Source of the DNA: a virus
IMG/VR virus record: IMGVR_UViG_3300033977_000275
Coordinates: 1-26,980 of that record
Direction: 5' to 3' (one strand)
Length of the DNA stretch: 26,980 nucleotides
Every line of letters begins with the position of its first letter. The stretch's first letter is position 1. This document shows positions 1 through 20,566 of the stretch, in pieces. The position numbers were made by a program, and so were the translations under genes. Below the pieces are notes generated by a model. The model was not told the DNA's origin, ran no database searches, and saw only the letters and a list, made by a program, of their open reading frames with translations.

Positions 1-1692
1 AACATTCCAGGGGTGGGACCCTTTGGACCTGCTTCCAATACAGCATCAATGCTCGGTCCGGAAGGCGAATACCTGATAGTAAGCCTAGATAACCTCGCAC
101 CAACCGAAACGACTATGACACCTTACGGCCCGGTAACTACTCAAATAGGGCCTTCACAGTGGTATCTGCAAGAATGGAATTCATCCAGGATTTGGGACAA
201 CCTATACTCTGGTCCATCAACAACGCCGGACATTCCTCCACCAGTAACCAACGGATCCTGGACAGGAGGTACTGTGACTTATGAGGGCTCACCCCTTTAT
301 GTGCCAAGCTTATACGACTTTAACGTTTCGTTACCGTGGCTCGACACTGCAACGCTCAACGGCGCGTCCATAGACTCCATAACTGTTCTCGGAAGTATCC
401 AAGATGGTATGGTGCTTGCGTACGCTGGCAGCTTCCCCTCAAATGGTCAAGCCTTGTTCTTTGGCGCGAAAAGCAGCGCTCCCTTTGAAACGTTTGGCAT
501 CAACCTCAACACAACTTCAGGTACACTTGGTACAGAGCTATGGCACAACACGATTTCGGCGCCACCAGGCAACCTCACTGTCTGCTGGGGTTGCATCGAC
601 CCAGTTAACAATGTCTTCGCGTTAGAATACAGGGAAACTATGCAGTATGTCGGGTACAGTTTGCTTACAGGCGCGCAAATTTGGGGTCCAACCACAGCAC
701 AAGCGCCACTTGACTACTATGGCTGTCAGGCTTCAGGTAGTTTAGCCACTACAGCTGCTTACGGCAACATCTACAGCAGCGCCTACGCAGGAATAGTCTA
801 CTGTTACAGTACGAAAACTGGAAATATACTGTGGACCTTCGGCAACGGTCCAGTAGGATCAGACAACAGCACAAACTCTGGCGTTGAAACTCCTTTCGGC
901 AATTATCCAACCTTCCTCGTGGCTATTGGTAACGGAGTAGTATACACGATTACCAGCGAGCACACTGAGGAAACACCGATTTTCAAAGGTGCAGTAGCAC
1001 GTGCTCTCAATGCAACAACCGGGCAACAAATCTGGACTCTTTCGGATTACACAGGCGAATTCTTTACCGGTAGCTACGCCATCGCAGACGGCTATTCAAC
1101 ATTCTTTAACGGCTACGACAACCAAATCTACAGTGTGGGCAGAGGACCAAGCCAAACCACTGTTAACGTTCAAGCCTTCGGCTCAGACGTAGTGATTAGC
1201 GGCACAGTCATGGATATTTCCGCTGGCACAAAGCAAGCCGAGCAGGCAGCTGACTTTCCAAACGGAGTCCCATGCGCATCCGACGCAAGCATGACCGCGT
1301 GGATGGGCTACGTTTACCAGCAACAACCAGAACCAACCAACTTCGTAGGCGTTCCAGTGCAAATAGCTGTCTTAGACTCTAACGGCAACCACTACCCCAT
1401 CGGCACCGTAACAACTGATCCAAGCGGCAGCTTCAGCCTGACATGGTCACCGATCATACCGGGCAACTTCACCGTCTACGCCACTTTCGCTGGCACCAAC
1501 GGCTACTGGCCATCGTACGCTGAAACGCACTTCTACGCTCCCGCACCATCACCAACACTAGCACCGACAGTTTCACCGCCAACAGGTCTGGCATCGACAG
1601 GAACCGTAGAGTTAGGAGTAGTAGCAATAATAATCGTGATAATCATAATCGGCGCTTTGATTCTGGTAATGCTCAGCAGAAAACGACCGTAA
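1..1692 (+). CDS. PQQ-like beta-propeller surface protein, 5' end outside window
   Basis: The frame is open from base 1 with no convincing start, so the N-terminus lies outside the window. The protein shows repeated beta-propeller blades of PQQ/BamB type, for example segments ending in GNILWTFG and TGQQIWTLSDYTG, where a Gly-x-x-x-Trp pattern closes each blade. After the propeller comes a beta-sandwich-like domain (GVPVQIAVLDSNGNHYPIG, then GNFTVYATFAG), a Pro/Thr/Ser-rich linker, a membrane segment of Ile and Val near the C-terminus, and a short basic tail (SRKRP). This is the usual plan of archaeal extracellular proteins held by a C-terminal anchor. A catalytic role is not evident; binding or cell-surface structure is more likely. 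It is probably a host gene, because such proteins are typical of archaeal chromosomes, but viral carriage cannot be excluded. Confidence 0.8.
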   Translation, partial: NIPGVGPFGPASNTASMLGPEGEYLIVSLDNLAPTETTMTPYGPVTTQIGPSQWYLQEWNSSRIWDNLYSGPSTTPDIPPPVTNGSWTGGTVTYEGSPLYVPSLYDFNVSLPWLDTATLNGASIDSITVLGSIQDGMVLAYAGSFPSNGQALFFGAKSSAPFETFGINLNTTSGTLGTELWHNTISAPPGNLTVCWGCIDPVNNVFALEYRETMQYVGYSLLTGAQIWGPTTAQAPLDYYGCQASGSLATTAAYGNIYSSAYAGIVYCYSTKTGNILWTFGNGPVGSDNSTNSGVETPFGNYPTFLVAIGNGVVYTITSEHTEETPIFKGAVARALNATTGQQIWTLSDYTGEFFTGSYAIADGYSTFFNGYDNQIYSVGRGPSQTTVNVQAFGSDVVISGTVMDISAGTKQAEQAADFPNGVPCASDASMTAWMGYVYQQQPEPTNFVGVPVQIAVLDSNGNHYPIGTVTTDPSGSFSLTWSPIIPGNFTVYATFAGTNGYWPSYAETHFYAPAPSPTLAPTVSPPTGLASTGTVELGVVAIIIVIIIIGALILVMLSRKRP

Positions 1693-1718
1693 AGTGAAAT
1701 CAACAAACACAACCTCAC

Positions 1719-1731
1719 TTTCCCCTTTTTT
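1719..1731 (+). terminator. T-rich archaeal-type terminator
   Basis: A pyrimidine run with six T in a row begins about 30 bases after the stop of the propeller gene. Archaeal polymerase commonly ends transcripts at such T tracts without a hairpin. The assignment rests on position and composition only. Confidence 0.4.
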
Positions 1732-1937
1732 AGTCCATTCAAAGTAACGGAGAAAAGATGTGAGCTGAGAAGGCTCTGGTTAATTCAATATCCATAGCAT
1801 TAGCATTTTTCATTTCTCCTACGTTTTTCCAGAGCCTCAGCAAACCCTTAAAAGTCAACAGCCTCTGCTTCAGAATTTACTCCCTTCCCTTCTTCTTCCG
1901 ACAGACGAACACATGTACAGAGTAGTTGCGAGGGCTT

Positions 1938-1984
1938 AGTCCAGAAACCTTTACTAAACTTTAACCGGTCAGTCCAGAAACCTT
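1938..1984 (+). repeat. Paired 14-bp direct repeats upstream of Kelch gene
   Basis: The 14-base sequence AGTCCAGAAACCTT occurs at 1938-1951 and again at 1971-1984, exactly 33 bases apart, or about three helical turns. The second copy ends ten bases before the TATA-like box of the Kelch gene. The position suggests an activator or repressor binding on one face of the DNA, but the regulator is unknown. Confidence 0.5.
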
Positions 1985-1993
1985 GACAAAAAC

Positions 1994-2002
1994 CCTTTTA
2001 TC
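1994..2002 (+). promoter_or_regulatory. TATA-like box for Kelch gene
   Basis: The sequence CCTTTTATC lies 27-35 bases before the ATG at 2029. With usual archaeal spacing the transcript would begin a few bases before the start codon, giving a leaderless or nearly leaderless mRNA. Confidence 0.4.
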
Positions 2003-2028
2003 ACAAGCCATCTCCAAGAGAAAAATGG

Positions 2029-3474
2029 ATGAGCATGAGCAAAGGTTACGCCGTGGCGCTCCTTCTCGTTTTTCTTTTGGCGCCATACTTAATCGCTGCT
2101 AAGCCTGTTTCTGCAGATTCAGCCGCGACTGGGAACACATGGACAGAGTTGGCGCCGATGAATCTGGCGAGATCATATTTTGGCGTGGTTGTCCTAAATG
2201 GGAAAATTTACGCCATTGGAGGCTGCGACCAAGTTGCTACGGGTGGTAGCATAATAATGCCAGCCAGCAGTATCACCGGAGGCGACATCGGCACAAACGA
2301 AGCATATGACCCTGCCACAGGTAATTGGACTTCAGAAGCGTCCATGCCAACGCCAAGAGAAGGCTTTGCGATCGCCACCTATCAAGGCAAAATCTACTGC
2401 ATCGGAGGAAGTACTCAAGAACCGCCTTATGACATGTTTGGTGCGGTAGGTGTAAACGAGGTTTATGATCCTTCAACGAACAGATGGCAAGAAGAAGCCC
2501 CGATGCCTTATCCATTAACAGATTTGCAAGCAAATGTCATAGATGGAAAAATATACTGCATAGGGGGAGTTAACTCCAGCAATGTTGGTTCCACGGCAAA
2601 TCAAGTTTATGATCCAGCCACTAACACTTGGAGCGAAGATGCACCTTTGCCAACTGCAACTTTCGATTATGCAACAGGAACGTGCAACGGTAAAATATAC
2701 GTGATAAACGGGATATGGTGGGAAAGCGATTATGGACTTGATCTTAACCAAATCTATAATCCTCAGAATAACAACTGGAGCTTAGGTGCACCACCTCCTC
2801 ATCCAGCAAACAGTTTTGAAGATGGAGATTATGTTGGAGCTGCAACCACCGGGGTTATGGCTCCAGAGCGAATTTACGCCATCGGCAGCTATACACAGAT
2901 CTACAATCCCATGACTAATTCTTGGTCGCTTGGGGAGGCAATTTCTCCTTCGAGAGATGGCTTTGCAGTTGCTAACGTAAATGATCAACTGTACGTTCTG
3001 GGCGGCTTAACAATTACCAGTGATTTGAATGCGGAGGTTGCCACTGAAACCGAGTTTAATCTAGCCCAACTGTATACTCCTGTTGGTTACGGCACGATTC
3101 GACCTGAAATTTCGATTCTGTCTCCAGAGAATCAGACGTTTAACGAGTCCAACGTTCCTCTGGTTTTCACCGTGGATAGGGCTGTCAGCTGGGAAGGCTA
3201 CAGTCTTGATGGCAAAGCAAACGTAACCTTGAGCCGCAACCAAACTATCAGCGGCGTTCCAAACGGTTTGCACACGATAACGGTCTACGCTAATGACACT
3301 TTCGGAAACATGGGGGCTTCGCAAACCGTCAACTTCACAGTGGCGGCGCCCAAGCCTTTTCCAAACGTGGCTGTTGCGGTTGTCTCCGGCTTAGTAGTGG
3401 TAGTAGTTGTGGTTATTGCTGGTTTTCTGGTTTACTTCAAGAAGCGCAAGAAGACAGGCGATTTAGGCGCTTAG
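2029..3474 (+). CDS. Secreted, membrane-anchored Kelch-repeat protein
   Basis: The 481-residue protein starts with a signal peptide (hydrophobic core ALLLVFLLAPYLIAA, residues about 10-24). It then carries about six Kelch blades, with the typical pairs NGKIYAIGG, YDPATGNW, DGKIYCIGG and YDPATNTWSEDAPLP. Near residue 360 it changes to an Ig-like domain (RPEISILSPENQTFNES), and it ends with a Val-rich membrane helix and a basic tail (KKRKK). Kelch propellers of this plan are common on archaeal cell surfaces and usually bind proteins or glycans; no catalytic residues are apparent. The ATG at 2029 is chosen because the signal peptide begins there and the TATA-like box fits. It is probably the last host gene before the viral genes. 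Confidence 0.88.
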   Translation: MSMSKGYAVALLLVFLLAPYLIAAKPVSADSAATGNTWTELAPMNLARSYFGVVVLNGKIYAIGGCDQVATGGSIIMPASSITGGDIGTNEAYDPATGNWTSEASMPTPREGFAIATYQGKIYCIGGSTQEPPYDMFGAVGVNEVYDPSTNRWQEEAPMPYPLTDLQANVIDGKIYCIGGVNSSNVGSTANQVYDPATNTWSEDAPLPTATFDYATGTCNGKIYVINGIWWESDYGLDLNQIYNPQNNNWSLGAPPPHPANSFEDGDYVGAATTGVMAPERIYAIGSYTQIYNPMTNSWSLGEAISPSRDGFAVANVNDQLYVLGGLTITSDLNAEVATETEFNLAQLYTPVGYGTIRPEISILSPENQTFNESNVPLVFTVDRAVSWEGYSLDGKANVTLSRNQTISGVPNGLHTITVYANDTFGNMGASQTVNFTVAAPKPFPNVAVAVVSGLVVVVVVVIAGFLVYFKKRKKTGDLGA

Positions 3475-4439: not shown

Positions 4440-5832
4440 ACAATTGTTTTCTGAGCGCGATAAGTTACGTGAAGACGTTAACGTTTTTGAACAGCAGAGG
4501 CTCAGCAAGGCTGAAACTCTTAAGAATGACCCGTCAGAGTTCTTCCGTCAAGTTCTAGGCGTTGAACCTACAGATTATCAAAAAGAGCTAATTGAGCTTT
4601 TTCAGAAGAATCAGTTTGTGGCAGCCCGCTGGTGTAGGCAGGCTGGAAAGAGCTTTACTGTGTCGGGTATGCTTTTGAATTATGCCCTGGCTAACTCGAA
4701 CGTTTACATCGGTGTTGTCGGTCCTTCTCTGCGTCAGACCAAGCTAATCATTCGGCGAATCGGACATTTCGCCAGTAAATTGCCTTTCGGTCCAAAGATT
4801 ATCGTTCAAAGAACCAGGATAACCTGCGCTAACGGCAGCGTGATTGAAGCTTTCCCGAATAATCCAGACACGATTCGGGGCCCCACTCTGGATGTGGTTT
4901 ATGCGGACGAGTTTAATTTTATCCCGAACGCTGAAGACCTTTACGACGCTATCCTCTTTACGCTTGGCACGACTAACGGCAAATTCGTCTGCACCAGCAC
5001 GCCCTGGAACAGTGACAGCCTGTTCTGGAAAATCTGCAATCATGATGACTTCAGCGATTTTGCAAGGCACCATGTAACCTGGGAGAGGGCGAAAGAGCCC
5101 AATGGGCCGCTTAAGCTTGGCATTCTTGAGAAGATCCGCAGGCAACTACTTAACGATCCAGCGCGGTGGCGCCGCGAAATGGAGGCCGAATGGGCTGAGG
5201 ACGAGGACGTTTGGCTTACTCAAAGTCTCATCGTAAGCTGCATCGACAGCGAACTCGTGCCTTACGAGTTTGAGGCGCAGCCTGCCAGCGGCGAATTTTT
5301 CGTCGGCGTCGATCTAGGGCAAAAACAAGACTACAGCGTTGTAGTTGTTATAGAGAAGCAGGGACACCTCTTGCGAGTAGCCCACGTGCACAGGTTTCCT
5401 CTGCACACTGAATACGCCAGTGTGATCGGCTACGTTAAGAGCCTTCAGGACCGCTGGCGCGTAATCCGGTCAGTCTACGTTGACTATACTGGTGTTGGAG
5501 TTGGTATAGTTGAGGACATGGTTAAGAGCGGAGTTCAAGGCGTCACCGGCATAACGTTTACGGTTACTTCTAAGGAGGACATGGCTAACATCCTGCGTGA
5601 GCGGATGCGTCAGGGCGAAGTGAAAATCAGCTACGTGCCTGTTCGCAAGTCTGGCGACATCGACCTTACGGTTGAGTTAAACGTTGAAAGGTACACGCTT
5701 ACGAAAACGGGGCATGTGGGGTTTAGCCATCCAGAAGGCACTCATGACGACGTCTTCTGGGCATTGGCTCTCAGCTGCTACGGTGCGGTGCAGGCGCCCA
5801 TGCCTGGCCGCGGCGCCGTGATGGCGGATTAA
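4399..5832 (+). CDS. terL: Terminase large subunit
   Basis: This 477-residue packaging ATPase-nuclease pumps genome DNA into the prohead through the portal and cuts it. The ATPase part shows Walker A (WCRQAGKSF, residues 78-86), Walker B (DVVYADEF, 165-172) and the coupling motif CTSTPW (198-203). The RuvC-like nuclease part shows its acidic residues in VGVDLGQKQD (Asp305), VYVDYTG (Asp362) and GTHDDVFW (Asp450/451). Length and motif order are complete, so it should be active. The ATG at 4399 lies within the end of the TerS-like gene, a common arrangement for coupled translation. A diverged second copy of its last 39 codons lies at 8368-8484. Downstream, the expected portal gene is displaced by about 4 kb of inserted DNA. 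Confidence 0.96.
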   Translation: MQNWRKSPRTLRPKQLFSERDKLREDVNVFEQQRLSKAETLKNDPSEFFRQVLGVEPTDYQKELIELFQKNQFVAARWCRQAGKSFTVSGMLLNYALANSNVYIGVVGPSLRQTKLIIRRIGHFASKLPFGPKIIVQRTRITCANGSVIEAFPNNPDTIRGPTLDVVYADEFNFIPNAEDLYDAILFTLGTTNGKFVCTSTPWNSDSLFWKICNHDDFSDFARHHVTWERAKEPNGPLKLGILEKIRRQLLNDPARWRREMEAEWAEDEDVWLTQSLIVSCIDSELVPYEFEAQPASGEFFVGVDLGQKQDYSVVVVIEKQGHLLRVAHVHRFPLHTEYASVIGYVKSLQDRWRVIRSVYVDYTGVGVGIVEDMVKSGVQGVTGITFTVTSKEDMANILRERMRQGEVKISYVPVRKSGDIDLTVELNVERYTLTKTGHVGFSHPEGTHDDVFWALALSCYGAVQAPMPGRGAVMAD

Positions 5833-5878
5833 GAATAGAGTCCAAAGTGGTATCTTGCTGTGTTGATGGTGATTTAGC

Positions 5879-5959
5879 TTGAGTTTTGTTGCTGATCGTG
5901 TTCGTAAGCGCGGTAAAAAATGGGCATTTACTGAGTTCGGCTTCGAAGATTTGAGGTAA
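5879..5959 (+). pseudogene. Truncated 5' stub of a second portal gene
   Basis: Bases 5866-5908 match 9783-9825 at 41 of 43 positions, which covers the ribosome site GGTGAT, the TTG start and the first ten codons of the portal gene (SFVADRVRK). After base 5908 the similarity stops and the frame ends at 5959 after 26 codons. This stub stands exactly where the portal gene should follow the terminase. It marks the left edge of inserted or recombined DNA rather than a working gene. Confidence 0.8.
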
Positions 5960-6108: not shown

Positions 6109-7050
6109 TTGAACAGCTACATAACTGACAAATATGCAGGAATGTTGACTGAAGAAGATGTTGGGAGTCTCTTTGATTCTTTAGCGAAGCAACTCGGCGG
6201 CAATCGCTCTGAAGCAGCGAGAAGATGCGGCTTGACCGGAAAAGCAACATATGATTGGGAACAGGCTACTTACGTAAAACTTGAAACCAAAAAGAAAGTG
6301 CTAGAAGCATCGCTCAGGGAGAATTTTCTGGCTACAGTAGAATACTTGCTAATACAAAGCTCAAACAAGAGCTTGGATCTTTTGAGGACAATTCTATCAA
6401 CACTATATGCAAATGCGTTGGAAGCAGCTTCTCCAAATGAGTTTAAGACCATGCTAGACAAGTTTGAAGAGATAAGAATAGCTCATCGAGGATTGATACG
6501 AGATCGGATTAATGATGAAATTGCAGATATGTCATCGATGTTGAAAAACAAGGCTTCAGATCTCGGGTTTTCTCTTGCAGCAAAATCAATTAGCGACTTT
6601 TCAGCAGAAGAAATGATAAATGCAGTGCAACTCGTCGGTCATTTGTATGCTGAGAACCCGGTGCAAGCTGAAACATTCGCTTTGAAGGATTTAGATCTTC
6701 CAGTTGATGCTTTGAAGCCTGTTATAGAGACATTCCAAAATCTATGCTTTGTGAAAGAAGCACACACTATGGCGGGAACTTATGTACATGGAGAAACATA
6801 TTGGGTTGATATACATGGAAGCCCAGTTTCGGTGGATGTACATGAGAGCCCAGGTTGGGTTGGTGTACATGGGAGCGTATGTTGGGTTGATATTCAAAGA
6901 AGTAGTTTGCAGCCAATTCAACACGCGAGAACATTTTTAGCCACCAGAGGTTCGTACTTTTTGCCACCTGAGCAAAATGCAGGATGGAGGACGTTAGCTG
7001 GCAAACCTATTGAGGAGAAGAAACTGTATGAAATTACCACAACAACTTAA
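6109..7050 (+). CDS. HTH-domain protein with C-terminal nonapeptide repeats
   Basis: The 313-residue product begins at TTG 6109, eight bases after a GAGGT ribosome site. Residues about 20-55 resemble a helix-turn-helix (SLAKQLGGNRSEAARRCGL, then TYDWEQ), with an Arg/Ser-rich recognition-helix region. A mostly helical middle follows (about 60-215). Residues 226-261 are four tandem nine-residue units (such as VHGSVCWVD and VHESPGWVG), each encoded by exactly 27 bases. I recognise no full-length family. It is first of three closely packed AT-rich genes that together sit between duplicated terminase/portal fragments; its last codons overlap the next gene. A regulator of this cassette or of the virus is likely; DNA binding is inferred from the N-terminus only. 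Confidence 0.65.
   Translation: MNSYITDKYAGMLTEEDVGSLFDSLAKQLGGNRSEAARRCGLTGKATYDWEQATYVKLETKKKVLEASLRENFLATVEYLLIQSSNKSLDLLRTILSTLYANALEAASPNEFKTMLDKFEEIRIAHRGLIRDRINDEIADMSSMLKNKASDLGFSLAAKSISDFSAEEMINAVQLVGHLYAENPVQAETFALKDLDLPVDALKPVIETFQNLCFVKEAHTMAGTYVHGETYWVDIHGSPVSVDVHESPGWVGVHGSVCWVDIQRSSLQPIQHARTFLATRGSYFLPPEQNAGWRTLAGKPIEEKKLYEITTTT
6784..6891 (+). repeat. Four tandem 27-bp repeats in coding frame
   Basis: Units start at 6784, 6811, 6838 and 6865. Each encodes nine residues of the pattern [VI]-H-[GE]-x-x-x-x-V-[DG]. The units have diverged at the DNA level while keeping length and frame, so the repeat is under protein-level constraint. Confidence 0.8.
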
Positions 7051-8337: not shown

Positions 8338-8367
8338 CAATAACGACTCATAAGAAAAGAAGCATTT

Positions 8368-8484
8368 GTAGGGTTTAGCCATCCAGAAGGCACTCATGAC
8401 GACGTTTTCTGGGCAATGGCTCTTAGCTGCTATGGTGCGGTGCAGGCGCCTATGCCCGGTCGCGGCGCCGTGATGGCGGATTAA
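8368..8484 (+). pseudogene. Diverged second copy of the terminase 3' end
   Basis: Bases 8368-8490 match 5716-5838 at about 115 of 123 positions, including the stop codon. Nearly all the substitutions are at third codon positions: only Leu to Met and one near the left edge could change a residue. A copy decaying in place would not keep the reading frame meaning this way. The fragment is therefore best read as the terminase end of a related virus that came in with the true portal gene. Confidence 0.8.
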
Positions 8485-8499
8485 GAATAGCGCCAAAAG

Positions 8500-8766: not shown

Positions 8767-9375
8767 TTGCTTTTAGCACCTATTTCTACAGCAATTTTAA
8801 TCGACAACATGTATCTCCAAAACGCTCAAAGAGTTTTTCAAATACTAGACCCGCTAGACCCCAGAAAATTTCCTAAAGCTTTTCTTAGAACACAACCACC
8901 AGAAGAGCATTTTAGAACTTTCATTTTTGATGCGCTCCCGTACTTGCCTGAAACAGGAGCAACTCAACAACAAATAGACTATCATAATAAAAAACGGGGC
9001 TTTCTAGAGGCTATACAGTATTATGAACGCATCGATGTTGAGCTAGGTGATGTTCGTCCAAAGCATGCGCATTGCCCTAACTGCGGAACGGATTATATCG
9101 TTACAGTTCAAAAGCTAGTGGATGTTAAAATATCAGTACGTTTAGTTTCTTTGGCATGGTCAGGTGTTGTTAGAAAGATTGTTTTGGTTGCTGGAGATAA
9201 GGATTTACTGCCTGCGGTTCAAGCTATAAAAGATTCTCAAACTACTGTGAGGCTAGCGTTTGTGGAAGAACAAGATGTTCAAACTAGTAAGGAACTAATC
9301 AGATGTTGCCCAGAAAAACATAAGTTAACTCAAGCTGACATTGCCTCATGTAAATGGGATAAACCTACTCGCTAA
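8767..9375 (+). CDS. NYN/PIN-like domain putative ribonuclease
   Basis: The 202-residue protein starts at TTG 8767, preceded by GAGGTT. It has the layout of NYN (LabA/DUF88-type) domains, PIN-like nucleases that cut RNA with metal-bound acidic residues: Asp13 in ILIDNMY, Asp119 in QKLVDVK, and VAGDKDLLPAVQ (Asp144, Asp146). A CPNC knuckle (103-106) is inserted before the VDVK strand. In most NYN proteins the helix after VDVK carries another Asp; here the position looks like Arg125 (SVRLVSLA), so activity may be altered. It is the only protein gene in the transposon-like element and lies just before a structured RNA and a tRNA. RNA is therefore the likely substrate, but which RNA is unknown. 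It is not a transposase. Confidence 0.75.
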   Translation: MLLAPISTAILIDNMYLQNAQRVFQILDPLDPRKFPKAFLRTQPPEEHFRTFIFDALPYLPETGATQQQIDYHNKKRGFLEAIQYYERIDVELGDVRPKHAHCPNCGTDYIVTVQKLVDVKISVRLVSLAWSGVVRKIVLVAGDKDLLPAVQAIKDSQTTVRLAFVEEQDVQTSKELIRCCPEKHKLTQADIASCKWDKPTR

Positions 9376-9757: not shown

Positions 9758-9795
9758 GCCAAAAGTAACATTCTTTAGTATCATGGTGATTTGGC

Positions 9796-11157
9796 TTGAG
9801 TTTTGTTGTTGATCGTGTTCGTAAGGGTTTGCGTTCTGTTAGGGCTGCCTTTACTGCTCAGCGGGATGTGCCGCCAGCGGTGAGCAAGCAGCAGATTGAA
9901 GAGGACATCCCGGTTAACTGGGGAAAAGACAACGTTCTCATGAACTACGTTAACAAGTACATGTTGAAGGGGGCGGGCGCCGGGTTTGTTACTCCTCCCT
10001 ACACGGCGCAGTGGGATCTGGTCTGGGGCGCGACGCCGATTGAAGACCTGCCGAAATACAAGGACCTGTACACGTTTACACCGTACATTAAAGCTGCGGT
10101 CGATGTCACCGTGAACTTGGCCATTTCGAACGGGTTTGTGTTGGACGGCGGCAAGGATGCTGTTCGCGAGTGGTTGACGGATTGGCTTGATGAGCAGAAC
10201 ATTCTGCACACGTTGCGGGTTGCCGCGGCTGACATGCTGGTTTTCGGTAATGCTTACTTGGAGATTTGCCGGGATGAGGACACTGGCGCGGTTGCTTGGC
10301 TTAAGCCGCTTGATCCTGTTTATATGCGTCCCCGACGCGACGCCTACGGCGAGGTTTTCGGCTACATCCAGCTTCTTACCATGCCGCCCGTGGTTTTCTC
10401 AGCCCAGGACATGATACATCTGCGTTGGGGCGCTAAGAGCTGGTGGTATGAGTTTTCGTACGGTACCAGCTTGCTTAGGCCGCTGTTGAAGATTCAGTTG
10501 TTAATCAACCAGTTTGAGGATGATATGGCGGTTATCTGTCACACTTACACCAAGCCCATGCTTGTCGTAAAGGCTGGTACTCCTCAGAACCCTTTCAGCG
10601 ATGCTCAGCTTCAATCGTTGAAGGAGGCTTTTCAAACCCGTAAGCCTGGCACTGACGTGTTTATCCGCGGCGACGTGGAGGCTCAGGCGATTCAGAGCAT
10701 GACTAAGGAGATCAACGTTGAGTTTTGGCTTAACTACCTCTACAAGGAGCGTGAAGCAGTCCTCGGCGTTCCCAAGATTTTTCTGGGCGAAAGCGAGGGC
10801 GCTAACCGGGCAACGGCTGACGTGGTTATGCAGGAGTATGTCACCCGGCTGCGCATGATTCAAGAGATCATCGGCGACCTGCTGGAGACTGTCCTCTTTA
10901 AGCAGCTTATTGACGAGGAGTTCGGCGAGGGACAGGAGATTCCTAAAGTCAAGTGGAAGCCCATTTGGGAGGCCTCAATAACTGACAAGGCCAAGTTTAT
11001 CACCGGGCTGGTGCAGGCTGGAATTATCACGGTTGGTGAGGCTCGGACACAGTTAGGTTTTCCTCCTCAGCCCCAAGATGGGGTTTTGCCTGCTCAGCCT
11101 TCGCAGGTTGAGGGGGAAGACGCTTATAAACGCTCAGTTAAGGCATCTTTGACATGA
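9796..11157 (+). CDS. Portal protein
   Basis: This 453-residue protein should form the dodecameric ring at one capsid vertex through which the terminase drives DNA and to which the connector and tail attach. The TTG start at 9796 follows a GGTGAT ribosome site and is supported by the homologous stub at 5879. Portal hallmarks are the stem region with VKAAVDVTVNLA-like helix (YIKAAVDVTVNLAISNGF), the DMIHLRWG segment, and the long C-terminal helix with the conserved pattern FLGESEGANRATADVVMQEY, followed by IQEIIGDLLE. Length is ordinary for HK97/SPP1-like portals. It is separated from its terminase partner by the inserted cassette and the transposon-like element, and followed by an accessory module rather than directly by the protease. 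Confidence 0.93.
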   Translation: MSFVVDRVRKGLRSVRAAFTAQRDVPPAVSKQQIEEDIPVNWGKDNVLMNYVNKYMLKGAGAGFVTPPYTAQWDLVWGATPIEDLPKYKDLYTFTPYIKAAVDVTVNLAISNGFVLDGGKDAVREWLTDWLDEQNILHTLRVAAADMLVFGNAYLEICRDEDTGAVAWLKPLDPVYMRPRRDAYGEVFGYIQLLTMPPVVFSAQDMIHLRWGAKSWWYEFSYGTSLLRPLLKIQLLINQFEDDMAVICHTYTKPMLVVKAGTPQNPFSDAQLQSLKEAFQTRKPGTDVFIRGDVEAQAIQSMTKEINVEFWLNYLYKEREAVLGVPKIFLGESEGANRATADVVMQEYVTRLRMIQEIIGDLLETVLFKQLIDEEFGEGQEIPKVKWKPIWEASITDKAKFITGLVQAGIITVGEARTQLGFPPQPQDGVLPAQPSQVEGEDAYKRSVKASLT

Positions 11158-14875: not shown

Positions 14876-16438
14876 ATGGCGTTTGTTGAGTCAGCTTTGA
14901 CTTATGTGACTTCTGGGGCTGAGCTTTACCCTGCATTGTCTAAGATGATTGTTGAGTTGACGATGCCTGCTTTGGTCATCAAGAAGTTGCTTCCGGAGTT
15001 TCCGCTGCCTATGGGTAAAAGTGCGACTTTTCTTAAAGAGCAAGGCAGCAGGGCAGCTGCGATAAGCCAGGTTGGTGAGGGCGCTGAGATCATGATGGAT
15101 TTCACGCCTTTGACAACGTTCACCGTGATTCCTTACAAGAAGGGGCTGCGTGAACGTGTCAGCCGCGAGAACATTGAGGACCTTTACATTCCGGTGATTG
15201 CAGAGCAACTGCGGCGTTTGGCTAGGCGTATGGCTTACACGATTGACAAGGACTGCATGTCTGTCATCCAAAACGCTGCAGGGAACTCGATTACTTCAAC
15301 CGGAACAAGCATGGGCGCTACTGGAACTGCGTTCACTGTAACTGGCGGCTGCGGTACGAAAGACATTTTGGCTGCTAAGGCTGCCGTTGAAAACAACAAT
15401 TTCATCGTTGACAGCTTCCTTCTTAACCCGATCAACGCTAGAGATGTTATGTATCTGCCGCAGTTTTCGCTTTACGCTCAGTTCGGTGAAGAACCGTCTG
15501 GGATGAAGAACGGCATGGTCGGCCAGATCTACGGCATGAACGTGTACGTTAGCACCGTTGTCCCCGCCGGCACCGCCTTCGTCTTAAGCACAGGCAAGAA
15601 CTTATCTGCTGCCTACGCTCCATTGGGCTATTTCGTAAATAGAAGCCAAAAGGAACACTTAAATAACTTAGCGGGTTAATGCTTGCTAAGTTGATAAGTT
15701 TGCCAAAGCCTCAAGAACCTGATCGCCTCTTCAAGACAAAAGCTTGCGCAATTTGCGGAAAACCTTTTACTGTTGAATGGAACCACGGCAAAACGGTTTG
15801 TTGTAGTGAGGAATGTAAACGTGCGAACTGGATTAAGAATCATCCGTCGAAGAATTCGAATTGTCTTAACTGTGGTAAGCCATTGTCGCTTTTGCAGTTA
15901 CGGCATGGAAAAAGACGCGGTGATTTTTGCTCTCAGAAATGCAACTTCCAATATTACCTCAAACTTAACCCAAATCACCAATCTATGGCTGGGAAGCATG
16001 GTGGTCTATCAACAGCAAAAAAACATCCCGAAAACATGCGCAATGCTTATTCAGTTTTGACTCCTGAACTTAGACGAGAAAACAAGCGTAAACATGATCA
16101 GACTGTAGTTGAAAAGGCTGAAGAGTTGAAAAAGAATGGTTTTCTCATTATCTTTCAAGATTCATGGTCAAAACCGAGACCAGACATCATCGCGTACAAG
16201 AACGGCGAATTATTTTTGTTGGATGTCAAAACTGGAAGGGGAAGTATTAAGGTACTTGAGGAAAGAAAGTTCAAGCTTGTTTCTTAATGGTTCTAGCGAA
16301 GTAAAACGCCCATTGATGACTGACGTTGAGGTTAAGCAGGAGTTCGACAGTGTCGACGTTACTTTGACTACCCGATACAGCCCCGTTGTAGTGTGTGGAG
16401 AAGCCATTTCTGCAATCACTGGTTTGAACACGAGTTAA
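14876..16438 (+). CDS. Major capsid protein, HK97 fold, gene split by an intron
   Basis: The coding sequence is best read as join(14876-15638, 16302-16438): 900 bases, 299 residues, in frame. The start follows AAGGTGAT. Exon 1 shows the HK97-type N-arm, E-loop (GEGAEIMMDFTPLTTFTV), spine helix (IAEQLRRLARRMAYTIDKD) and A-domain (FLLNPINARDVMYL). Without splicing the frame stops at 15679 and the protein lacks its last strand. Exon 2 supplies the standard C-terminus (KRPLMTDVEVKQEFDSVD, then TTRYSPVVVCGEAI). Joining at the bulge-helix-bulge gives GYFVIKRPL, the motif expected there. A three-base shifted join at the shared GTAAA also stays in frame (GYFVKRPL). The product should build the icosahedral shell after proteolytic maturation. 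Confidence 0.87.
15665..15692 (+). promoter_or_regulatory. Hairpin presenting the endonuclease start codon
   Basis: AACTTAGC (15665-15672) pairs perfectly with GCTAAGTT (15685-15692). The 12-base loop contains the overlapping stop and start, TAATG, at 15677-15681. In unspliced mRNA this could limit or time translation of the endonuclease after the capsid reading frame ends. Pairing is certain; control is inferred. Confidence 0.5.
15679..16287 (+). CDS. Intron-encoded putative homing endonuclease, zinc-finger plus PD-(D/E)XK
   Basis: The 202-residue gene lies wholly within the intron; its ATG overlaps the stop of the unspliced capsid frame (TAATG). Two zinc-finger-like units come first, CAICGKPF...CSEEC (about residues 22-46) and CLNCGKPL...CSQKC (about 61-87). 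A KHGGLSTAKKHPENM region resembling intron-endonuclease DNA-binding modules follows. The C-terminus has a PD-(D/E)XK-type core: a helix VVEKAEELKKNGF, then RPDIIAYKNGELFLLDVKTG, giving PD...DVK. Such an enzyme would cut intronless capsid genes so that the intron is copied in by repair. Most homing enzymes in archaeal introns are LAGLIDADG, so this type is unusual. It is not an intein, because stop codons interrupt the frame. Confidence 0.72.
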   Translation: MLAKLISLPKPQEPDRLFKTKACAICGKPFTVEWNHGKTVCCSEECKRANWIKNHPSKNSNCLNCGKPLSLLQLRHGKRRGDFCSQKCNFQYYLKLNPNHQSMAGKHGGLSTAKKHPENMRNAYSVLTPELRRENKRKHDQTVVEKAEELKKNGFLIIFQDSWSKPRPDIIAYKNGELFLLDVKTGRGSIKVLEERKFKLVS

Positions 16439-16606: not shown

Positions 16607-16639
16607 CTTCATGCTTTAGAGGTACCTGGGGAGTAGTTG

Positions 16640-19600
16640 ATGGGCAGCGCTAGTATTTCAATTTCAATCACTGCGCAGCACGCGTTCACGCTTAATTCCA
16701 CGGCTGATAACACAGCGGCGTCGATTAATAGTCCGCAGTGGAATTCCGCCCATAATACGACGGCGTCTATAAGCATTGCAAATATTAACGCTGACAGTTT
16801 AGGCGGGTCAGCTGCTTCGCAGTTTGCAGGCTCATCTGTCGTTGCCCAAATCAACTCTTCATCTGGCTCGTTGACGCTTGCCGCAGGCAACAACGTAACC
16901 CTTAGTCAAAGCAACAGCGGAATCACGATCAACGGTCCCAACATTCCGGCTCAGTCAACAGCACCAGCCGAGATTTCTGCGTCAAATCAAGCATTTACGT
17001 CTGGCACAATCGTCATTTCTGGATCAGACATGGTCACAGTTAAAACAGGCGCTAATCAGTCCATCATTATCGATGCCACTCAAAGCGTACAGACTCAGAG
17101 CACAGCGGCGCTTAATGGATCGACAGGCAACGTTCTTTTAACGGCTGGAAATAATGTTACGCTTTCGCAGAATCAAAGCACAATAACGATCTCTGCAGCG
17201 AACCAATCAGTTCAATCCTACAATATCCCTGCCGCTGGAACGCAGACTGCTAACTCCAGCGGAACTCATGTTTTTTCTAACTCCAACAACGTCAGTTTTG
17301 GAATGAATAATTCCTCAGTGATTACGGCGTCTGCATCGTTTAGTCAATCAGTTCAGACGCAGAGCCTTATTCCAGCCGCAGGAGTCTCAGGCGGCAACAC
17401 AAACAACACGAGTGGAACTTTTAGCGGCTCGTTAATGTTTGCTGGCGGAAATAATATCACTTTGTCTGTTTCAACTTCAGCAGGCGGCCAAACAATTACT
17501 ATTTCGGCTGCTAATGCCGGCGGCGCCCAAACAGGCATCAGTGGCATAATCGCGGGTACTCAAACAGAAACTTCGGGTACTATAAGTTTTGCAAACAGTA
17601 ACGGCATATCTTTCGGAATGTCTAACTCGTCAGTTATAACTGCTTCTTATACGGTACCTACGCAGTCAGTACAGAGCTATAATATTCCAGCTGCAGGAAC
17701 ACAAACTGCACAAACTTCTGGGACGCACGTCTTCAGCAACTCCAATAATGTTAGCTTTGGAATGAGCAATTCAAGCGTCATAACAGCGTCAGCATCGTGC
17801 CCTTCTCAAACAACACAGTCTTACAACATATTAGCAGCAGGGACGCAGACCGCTAACACTACCGGCACTGTCGTCTTTAGCAACTCAAACAGCGTCACTT
17901 TCGGAATGTCTAACAGCTCTGTTGTGACAGCATCGTTTAGTCAAAGCGTTCAAACACAAGGTTTGGTTCCTGTGGCAGGCGTAAGCACCGCTGGAAACAC
18001 AAGCGGTAACACAGGTGCTTACTCAGGCTCGTTCTTTCTCCAGGGCGGAAACAACATCACGTTGTCGGTGTCAACGGCGGCAGGCGCACAAACAGTCATT
18101 GTCTCGGGCGCAAACGCTGGCGGAGCCCAAACAGGAATTTCAGGAGTCATCGCGTCCAATGCAACATACACAAGTGGCACAGTTTCGTTTTCAGGCAGCG
18201 ACATGATTACGGTGAAATCTGCCGCAGGACAAGCTGTAATTATCGATGCTACTCAAAGCGTTCAGTCTTACAATATACCTGCTGCGGGTACAGAGACTGC
18301 TCAGACAAGCGGAACGCATGTTTTTAGCAACAGTAACAACGTAAGTTTTGGCATGAGCAATTCAAGCGTGATTACGGCTTCAGCCTCATTTTCGCAGTCT
18401 ACGGCTCCTGGAGCAATTAGCGCGGGCACGCAGATAGCGGCTTCTGGAACGGTTGTACTTTCAAACTCTAATGGCATCAGCTTTGGTATGAGCAACTCTT
18501 CAATTATAACTGCTTCGTACACAGTGCCATCACAATCTGTGCAAACTCAAAACATGGTTGATGTCGTCGCATCCAACACGACTTTCAGTTCAGGCACTAT
18601 CACAATTTCTGGGAGCGATATGGTAACTGTCAAGTCGGCGGCGAATGAGGTAATAATTGATGCTACTCAGTCTGTGCAGACGCAGAGTGTCCATCAGTTG
18701 TCAGCTGGGACTCAACTAGCTACCAGCGGCACCGTTGTACTCAGTAACAGTAATAACGTCACTTTTGGAATGTCGAATAGTTCGATTGTTACAGCATCAG
18801 CCTCGTATCCGTCTCAAACGGTTCAAAGCTACAATATTCTTGCAGCGGGAACTCAAACTGCTAATACAACGGGAAGCGTTGTATTTTCTAATAGTAACAA
18901 CGTCACGTTCGGTATGTCTCAATCATCCATCGTCACAGCATCGTTCAGTTATTCGCAATCTACAGCTCCGAGCGCTATATCAGCGTCAGGCAGCAGCGTG
19001 AGTTCAGGCACTGTTGTTTTCAGTAACAGCAACAACGTATCGTTCGGAATGAACGGGAATACGATCACAGCAACAGTAACAGGCGCAGGCGGCGGAGGAG
19101 GCGCTGCGATTTCAGCGAGTGGTAGCTCCATCAGCTCCGGTACAGCTGTCTTCAGTAACAGTAACAATGTGAGTTTCGGAATGAACGGGTCCACAATTAC
19201 CGCTTCGGCAACAGTAGCTTCTACAACGTACCAATCTTACAACGGAGGCATATCTGCCGGCTCTCAAATTATAACCTCGGGAACGGCGGTTTTCAGCAAC
19301 AGTAACAACGTCACATTTGGAATGAGTAATTCCTCGGTGATTACGGCGTCCGCGTCCTATCCGGCGCAGACGGTACAATCTTACAACTTGCTTGCTGCGG
19401 GAACTCAGACTGCTAATACAACCGGAACAGTTGAATTTTCTAACAGCAATAATGTTTCGTTCGGGATGTCTAATTCTTCGGTGATAACGGCATCATTTTC
19501 CTACTCGCAGTCTACGGCTCCGAGCGCAATATCAGCGTCTGGAAGCTCTGTCTCTTCTGGCACTGTTGTGTTTAGCAACGCGAACAACGTCACGTTTGGT

Positions 19601-20566
19601 ATGAGTAACAACACGATAACTGCTTCAGCTTCTGGCGCAGGCGGCGGCGGGGGCGCAGCGATTTCGGCATCTGGAAACTCCGCTTCAAACGGTACAGTTG
19701 TCTTTTCGAACAGCAACTCCGTGAGTTTCGGCATGAACGGTTCAACAGTTACGGCATCCGTCGGCGCGACAACCTTGCAGTCTTACAACGGCGGAATCGC
19801 GGCTGGAACTCAGACGTTAACTTCAGGGACTTGCATCTTCTCGAACAGCAACGGCGTAAGCTTCGGCATGTCAGGAACTGCGACTGTTACGGCAAATGTC
19901 GCAAGTTTGGTTCCGAGGATGCAAGCGTATTTTCCATTGGACGAAGTCTTCACAAGTTTGGTCGCTGTTCCGCAGGGCAGCGTATCAGTTCAGCCCGTGC
20001 TCTTCCCGTTCTACCTGACCGCAACAGAAATTGACTTCGCAGTAAGCATGAGCGTTGCAACGAACACGTCGAACACAAGCGCGTCATGTAACATAAGCAT
20101 CAACGTCGGCTTGTATTCACTGAGTTATTCAACTAGTGCTGGTGGAGCGACAAACGAGTTAACGTTAGCTACGTCATCCAGCGGCGTCGTCGAATTCACT
20201 TGGAGCAGCAACACAACGGGTTCAGTTACTGGCATGAAGCGGCTATCCGTGCCGTTCAGCATTAACGCTACGCCTGGTCTCTGGTGGCTCGGCGTAGTCA
20301 TGTCCACAGCGACAACTTACACTGGGCAGTCGATGACTATTTACGGTAACAGCGCGGTTCCGAACGCGTCGAACGCTATGAACCTCGGTTATTTAGGTTC
20401 TGGTACTGCGACTTACGGGTCAGTTTTCCCGTGGCAAGGCATCTACACAGTTCAGCAAAGCAGCGTTCCGAACGCTATCAGTACGGCCGACTTGAACGTA
20501 ACGTCTGCGTCGAACGTGCAGATAGCTAACGTCTGGTTTGCACTTAAAAACAACGTGTCATGGTAG
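16640..20566 (+). CDS. Giant repeat fibre/adhesin protein
   Basis: ATG 16640 is chosen over TTG 16637 because GGGGAG sits six bases before it; the product is about 1308 residues. Nearly all of it is built from short beta repeats. I count 15 copies of a unit like GTVVFSNSNNVSFGMSN-SSVITAS, three of a unit like GSDMVTVK...IIDATQS, and a few GGNNITLSVSTSAG units, joined by Ala/Thr/Gln linkers and two Gly-rich hinges (GAGGGGGAAISASG). The last 200 residues, after LVPRMQAYFPLDEV, are a distinct non-repeated domain that may be the tip. This plan fits a trimeric viral fibre or adhesin. The gene lies between capsid and connector genes, unlike usual tail-fibre genes, so a head fibre is also possible. 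There is no signal peptide. Confidence 0.75.
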   Translation: MGSASISISITAQHAFTLNSTADNTAASINSPQWNSAHNTTASISIANINADSLGGSAASQFAGSSVVAQINSSSGSLTLAAGNNVTLSQSNSGITINGPNIPAQSTAPAEISASNQAFTSGTIVISGSDMVTVKTGANQSIIIDATQSVQTQSTAALNGSTGNVLLTAGNNVTLSQNQSTITISAANQSVQSYNIPAAGTQTANSSGTHVFSNSNNVSFGMNNSSVITASASFSQSVQTQSLIPAAGVSGGNTNNTSGTFSGSLMFAGGNNITLSVSTSAGGQTITISAANAGGAQTGISGIIAGTQTETSGTISFANSNGISFGMSNSSVITASYTVPTQSVQSYNIPAAGTQTAQTSGTHVFSNSNNVSFGMSNSSVITASASCPSQTTQSYNILAAGTQTANTTGTVVFSNSNSVTFGMSNSSVVTASFSQSVQTQGLVPVAGVSTAGNTSGNTGAYSGSFFLQGGNNITLSVSTAAGAQTVIVSGANAGGAQTGISGVIASNATYTSGTVSFSGSDMITVKSAAGQAVIIDATQSVQSYNIPAAGTETAQTSGTHVFSNSNNVSFGMSNSSVITASASFSQSTAPGAISAGTQIAASGTVVLSNSNGISFGMSNSSIITASYTVPSQSVQTQNMVDVVASNTTFSSGTITISGSDMVTVKSAANEVIIDATQSVQTQSVHQLSAGTQLATSGTVVLSNSNNVTFGMSNSSIVTASASYPSQTVQSYNILAAGTQTANTTGSVVFSNSNNVTFGMSQSSIVTASFSYSQSTAPSAISASGSSVSSGTVVFSNSNNVSFGMNGNTITATVTGAGGGGGAAISASGSSISSGTAVFSNSNNVSFGMNGSTITASATVASTTYQSYNGGISAGSQIITSGTAVFSNSNNVTFGMSNSSVITASASYPAQTVQSYNLLAAGTQTANTTGTVEFSNSNNVSFGMSNSSVITASFSYSQSTAPSAISASGSSVSSGTVVFSNANNVTFGMSNNTITASASGAGGGGGAAISASGNSASNGTVVFSNSNSVSFGMNGSTVTASVGATTLQSYNGGIAAGTQTLTSGTCIFSNSNGVSFGMSGTATVTANVASLVPRMQAYFPLDEVFTSLVAVPQGSVSVQPVLFPFYLTATEIDFAVSMSVATNTSNTSASCNISINVGLYSLSYSTSAGGATNELTLATSSSGVVEFTWSSNTTGSVTGMKRLSVPFSINATPGLWWLGVVMSTATTYTGQSMTIYGNSAVPNASNAMNLGYLGSGTATYGSVFPWQGIYTVQQSSVPNAISTADLNVTSASNVQIANVWFALKNNVSW

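Follow-up and report, generated by a model that had tools for sequence, protein, structure and literature searches.

Probable archaeal bulge-helix-bulge introns in the capsid genes of tailed Bathyarchaeia viruses

The capsid gene of virus record IMGVR_UViG_3300033977_000275 (hereafter the window, the whole 26,980-bp stretch that was analyzed) is interrupted by a 663-nt insert. We consider this insert very probably to be an archaeal bulge-helix-bulge (BHB) intron that the host splices out of the capsid mRNA of a tailed Bathyarchaeia virus; it encodes a putative nuclease and is probably a homing intron. That an archaeal BHB intron splits the capsid gene had been predicted from the window alone, and the prediction is now supported by a precise insertion, an intron-free allele, BHB geometry, covariation, purifying selection on exon 2, recurrence (36 further introns), and host enzymes, all read from sequence. 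Splicing in vivo, nuclease activity, and homing we infer.

The interrupted capsid gene and its junction

Terminase, portal, cement, and HK97-type capsid genes were found in the window. Exon 1 of the capsid gene scored 40.1 bits against Pfam Phage_capsid_4 (cut-off 27), and the interrupted gene is an HK97-fold capsid gene, not cbf5. Exon 1 had been described as running into a stop, with the C-terminal part downstream, and this is what we found: the unspliced frame reads 13 insert codons and then meets a stop at 15677-15679, and the remainder of the gene follows the insert (Table 1). The capsid protein expected without splicing ends NRSQKEHLNNLAG. The predicted sum of 763 + 137 = 900 in-frame bases was likewise reproduced, with the sole stop at the end, a product of 299 aa, and the junction GYFVIKRPL.

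Table 1. Coordinates of the interrupted capsid gene, its insert, and the predicted RNA elements in the window.
Feature	Position	Strand	Details and basis
Exon 1, HK97-fold major capsid gene	14876..15638	+	763 nt, codons 1-254 plus one base; Pfam Phage_capsid_4, major head protein PHROGs, spliced alignment
G/C-rich exon helix, 5' strand TGGGC	15624..15628	+	Pairs with 16308-16312; sequence, fold
BHB core (4 bp), 5' strand TCGT	15633..15636	+	BHB geometry, covariation
5' bulge AAA	15637..15639	+	Predicted cut after 15638
Predicted BHB intron, 663 nt	15639..16301	+	Missing in L002; protein-only spliced alignment; BHB geometry
Inner (intron-side) helix, 5' strand TAGAA	15640..15644	+	BHB geometry, covariation
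Hairpin (13 bp) enclosing the intron-ORF start codon	15664..15693	+	RNA fold
Intron ORF, 202 aa	15679..16287	+	All similarity weak
Inner helix, 3' strand TTCTA	16291..16295	+	BHB geometry, covariation
BHB core, 3' strand GCGA	16296..16299	+	BHB geometry, covariation
3' bulge AGT	16300..16302	+	Predicted cut after 16301
Exon 2	16302..16438	+	137 nt, last 45 codons plus stop
G/C-rich exon helix, 3' strand GCCCA	16308..16312	+	Sequence, fold

The boundaries of the insert were recovered from protein evidence alone. A purpose-written aligner, which places a protein profile on DNA, permits introns in any phase, and is blind to RNA structure, returned the junction 15638/16302 exactly. The original prediction had suggested looking for an intact capsid gene free of the insert, and the closest relative (L002, 97% identical protein) has one: its gene is uninterrupted, with 900 nt against 900 nt and 0 indels, and its TTCGTGATAAAACG equals the product of applying the BHB rule to the window (TTCGTAA+TAAAACG) except for one synonymous change.

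Exon 2 showed a dN/dS of 0.026 between the window and this relative and of 0.00-0.28 across the other intron-bearing genes, despite the stop or frame change that precedes it. Judged by these ratios, exon 2 is under purifying selection in intron-bearing genes. An AlphaFold model of the intact 97%-identical relative, of low confidence (pLDDT 49.9), matched HK97-fold capsids and encapsulins in the PDB (best E 6.6e-7), and three strands of the capsid in this low-confidence model are encoded by exon 2.

The borders of the insert had been called a textbook BHB. All parts lie where they were predicted, but the word is slightly too strong for this copy, since the 3' bulge is paired in the best fold and the helix that flanks it on the exon side is a short A/U one containing an A.A mismatch. 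An internal loop separates this helix from the G/C-rich one. In the unconstrained minimum-energy fold, pairing of the AGT bulge is 5.9 kcal/mol better than the open form, while the core forms with P = 0.99 and the 5' bulge is as described; the trimmed intron folds much better than shuffles (z -4.0). At a spacing of 663 nt, BHB scores at least as high as this one occurred at 4 of 26,277 window positions, the true site counted.

Covariation at this site was assessed in 18 genes with 12 distinct border sequences. The core pairs UCGU with GCGA or GCGG, and all five inner-helix pairs (5/5) showed two-sided change. Double-changed cells numbered 21, compared with 6.2 ± 1.7 in shuffled data (0/500), and pairing stood at 92.9%, compared with 42% after a one-column slide. 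The ends of the same intron paired at 4.64 of 5 positions, and swapped ends at 2.17 (0/100,000 permutations). The random-site null that accompanied this comparison takes in the true site, and p-values drawn from it are upper bounds. By these measures, the BHB structure is conserved through compensatory change.

We also recorded several features elsewhere in the window. About 3.9 kb is inserted between the terminase and portal genes, which adjoin in a related locus (L003), and both ends of this stretch are partly duplicated: the terminase 3' end occurs twice (5715-5847 and 8367-8499; 133 nt, 92%), as does the portal 5' end (5866-5908 and 9783-9825; 43 nt, 95%). The stretch contains three ORFs, an NYN-domain gene (8767-9375), and a minus-strand tRNA-Val. 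Four tandem copies of a 27-nt coding repeat (6783-6902) lie in the ORF at 6109-7050. A 1309-aa highly repetitive protein, probably a tail fiber or adhesin, is encoded at 16637-20566, with repeats like SNSNNVSFGMSNSSVITAS, and positions 1-3474 encode PQQ/Ig-like and kelch-repeat surface proteins with C-terminal membrane anchors, which are either host flank or viral receptor-binding genes.

Recurrence, intron ORFs, and distribution

Comparable insertions recur in related viral capsid genes. More than 100 such genes were collected from viral contigs, with exon 1 and alignments as queries, and 29 of 117 distinct genes carried a total of 37 insertions, which is not an unbiased frequency because some searches were seeded with intron-bearing genes. 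The inserts come from many independent data sets. They range from 17 to 794 nt, number at most three per gene, fall in differing codon phases, and occupy some ten positions in about seven well-separated places (profile columns 28, 72, 84, 201/202, 245-248, 252/253, and 281). All 37 have a 4-bp core between two opposite-strand 3-nt bulges, with inner and outer helices, at the protein-defined junction, although two introns at site 84 have A.G as their outermost core pair. Scores for the fixed BHB geometry ranged from 16.8 to 32.8, and removal by the BHB rule restored an open, in-frame capsid gene in 29 of 29 cases. When folding was unconstrained, the core formed in 35 introns (33 complete and 2 with three pairs) and both bulges were open in 20 of the 37. 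The BHB reading is thus supported, but the original prediction had overlooked both the recurrence at multiple sites and the putative nuclease ORF within the intron.

Natural negative controls for the BHB score came from in-frame coding insertions, 18 or 24 nt long, in seven genes (L037, L091, L112, L191, L203, L234, and L269); these insertions scored 3-9 and were rejected as introns. In L203, which already has two BHB introns, a further 106-nt insert lies near the capsid gene 3' end (4676-4781, column 281). This insert was accepted as an intron with the lowest score of the set (16.8), and the frame is intact after its removal.

A search at 92 loci of the other genes lying up to 5-6 kb from the capsid gene gave no convincing intron. 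The best candidate of that search, before the portal gene of L049, lies upstream of the true ATG and was rejected. Neither the INPHARED phages, searched for the capsid, nor a first scan of genome contigs with exon 1 gave a match.

In the protein encoded by the window's intron, two Cys clusters resemble zinc ribbons, and the C-terminal part has a PD-(D/E)xK motif (PD...DVK) like that of Hjc. The matches of the ORF were weak, with E values of 0.035 to Pfam Hjc and 0.044 to Hjc in the PDB. Foldseek, applied to a model with pLDDT 60.7, returned Hjc with a probability of up to 0.99 at E 0.13 and I-Ssp6803I at low rank. We treat an Hjc-like nuclease identity as a tentative assignment, a lead and not proof. 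No close relatives of the ORF were found in viral contigs, phages, or 257 Bathyarchaeia genomes, and matches in L158 and L159 were unrelated by content. Within the viral collection, the window's 5' junction sequence is confined to this one record, so that, with no close relative of the ORF, the long 663-nt copy rests on one contig. The ORF start overlaps the exon-1 read-through stop (TAATG), and this overlap, together with the hairpin around the start codon, suggests coupled, controlled translation from unspliced RNA, with the hairpin as a possible element of translational control.

A second ORF-bearing intron, 794 nt long, was found in L222 at column 248, a site other than the window's; the same gene has a further intron of 32 nt at column 84. 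The longer intron encodes a zinc-ribbon protein of 255 aa whose domain is DUF559/MTES_1575/Vsr-like (DUF559, 21.0 bits with a cut-off of 20.6; MTES_1575, E 8.8e-6). At the same position as the 794-nt intron, L193 carries a 38-nt intron that shares the stem GCAAAC/GTTTGC with it but has no ORF, and this short intron resembles a deletion derivative.

The distribution of the introns is patchy, and intron-free sites in close relatives are precise. At the window's site, we counted 9-12 state changes on the capsid tree. Within one clade of near-identical capsid proteins, the intron is present in L009, L012, L023, and L024 and missing from L007, L025, L028, and L030. The patchy distribution and precise empty sites suggest that these are mobile (homing) introns with ORF-less remnants.

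Host enzymes, proposed mechanism, and alternatives

A related provirus was found in a Bathyarchaeota MAG, and from such relatives we infer Bathyarchaeia as the host for this contig. Among the 257 Bathyarchaeia genomes searched, genome G132 carries a provirus on a 2.73-Mb contig; the capsid gene of this provirus is interrupted at the window's site by a 65-nt intron, which excludes assembly error for the phenomenon as such. Two genomes that host relatives, including G132, each contain two tRNA_int_endo genes; by eye, one splicing-endonuclease subunit has the catalytic-type Tyr/His/Lys and the other does not. RtcB was found in G001, the one host tested. Hetero-tetrameric splicing endonuclease cleaves BHBs outside tRNA (PMC2738675), and the presence of two differing subunits per host matches expectation for such an enzyme.

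Under the mechanism we propose, the intron ends in the capsid transcript would pair into a BHB, the host EndA-type tRNA-splicing endonuclease, built of two different subunits, would cut both bulges behind their second base, and ligation of A15638 to T16302 by RtcB would yield a transcript for the whole HK97-fold capsid protein of 299 aa. The zinc-ribbon/PD-(D/E)xK protein would probably be made from unspliced RNA, coupled to the exon-1 read-through stop. This nuclease would most likely cut intron-free capsid alleles of co-infecting relatives, and the intron would be copied in by repair as a result. Where short introns occupy this or other sites, they would be remnants left after ORF loss.

The insert could instead be skipped by the ribosome with the RNA uncut, as in the programmed translational bypassing of T4 gene 60, to which we assign a small chance. 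Bypassed segments are short and hairpin-forming, and so are most of the inserts (17-68 nt), but two of them reach 663 and 794 nt and contain ORFs of their own, and the inserts as a whole lie in differing codon phases. The window's sole matching take-off/landing pair (GTA...GTA) would delete Ile255, which is invariant in aligned intact relatives, and L009 has no matching landing codon. Moreover, the junction can be predicted from BHB geometry at each of the sites, and bypassing does not require a BHB. Slighter still is the chance of an assembly error, sequencing artefact, or decaying capsid gene. The window junction is known from a single record, and host genome G088 does contain a truly decayed capsid copy, but the same-site insert on the 2.73-Mb provirus contig, the many independent data sets, the strong purifying selection on exon 2, and the match of boundaries to structure in every case all argue against this explanation.

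It is comparably improbable that a nuclease gene was merely inserted and that exons 1 and 2 give separate chains without splicing. Although an ORF from 16136 runs in frame through exon 2, that start falls within the nuclease ORF, exon 2 itself starts mid-codon, inserts of 17-35 nt are too small to provide a new start, and every aligned intact relative has the IKRP motif at the junction. The most remote of these explanations is an intein or an intron of the self-splicing group I or II type, even though bacterial-phage capsid genes do host homing-endonuclease introns (PMC3706429), as the window's intron had no Rfam match at E <= 1 and was rejected as a group I core, most members (17-106 nt) are below ribozyme size, and inteins are excluded by the stop codons and frame changes.

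Relation to known introns and significance

BHB introns in mRNA are represented in the literature by those of cbf5, which in Crenarchaeota measure 16-44 bp (PMC2738675). Like the capsid introns, cbf5 introns lie in a protein-coding gene, are short, depend on the endonuclease, and are gained and lost between lineages (PMC2738675). They differ in occupying one site of a cellular gene and having no ORF, whereas the capsid introns occupy several sites of a viral structural gene, with up to three per gene, and two of them have nuclease-like ORFs. Archaeal rRNA introns share the BHB borders, the presence of ORFs in some members, ORF-less deletion derivatives, and a patchy occurrence in conserved sequence (PMC2738675, PMC4496867, PMC6125680). 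Unlike these, the capsid introns lie in mRNA, and their putative nucleases are Hjc-like PD-(D/E)xK and DUF559/Vsr-like. To our knowledge, the nucleases of rRNA BHB introns are LAGLIDADG proteins.

Introns have also been proposed in protein genes of an archaeal virus, the rudivirus SIRV1, as putative 12-bp elements (Peng et al., via PMC2738675) that the citing authors describe as possibly unspliced (PMC2738675). Those elements are in frame and their splicing is only putative, whereas the capsid inserts break the frame and have covarying BHBs. Capsid-gene introns of bacterial phages are of the self-splicing type, whereas splicing by host tRNA enzymes is predicted here. The intron of mycobacteriophage cluster J is similar in residing in a tailed-virus capsid gene (PMC3706429). 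Surveys of archaeal tailed viruses and of Bathyarchaeia viruses leave mRNA introns unmentioned (PMC8651126, PMC10848311, PMC11705971). A literature search whose range left out most subscription papers and all bioRxiv preprints turned up no viral structural gene reported to contain BHB introns, and BHB introns with nuclease ORFs in viral structural mRNA appear to be new.

Archaeal mRNA introns have hitherto been essentially those of cbf5, and a probably mobile BHB family in the capsid mRNA of viruses is of greater interest than a single case. The 2009 study of cbf5 stated that proof of an origin of short mRNA introns by deletion would require the discovery of an intron with a protein-coding sequence inside it (PMC2738675). 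The ORF-bearing 794-nt intron of L222 and the ORF-less 38-nt intron of L193, with their common stem, form such a pair, although the gene is a different one. Because presence and absence of introns are polymorphic in close relatives, gain, loss, and homing of archaeal mRNA introns become directly testable. Standard gene calling truncates or splits these archaeal-virus capsid genes.

We lean toward a broader view in which Bathyarchaeia viruses carry mobile BHB introns that are concentrated in the capsid gene and were separately adopted by unrelated nucleases, with the short introns as remnants and shell production dependent on host splicing. If true, the mobile-intron reading would supply the ORF-bearing state postulated for archaeal short mRNA introns, in another gene (PMC2738675). 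With BHB introns in its capsid gene, the virus probably needs host tRNA-splicing enzymes to make its shell, and the host tRNA-splicing system may therefore be a viral dependence factor.
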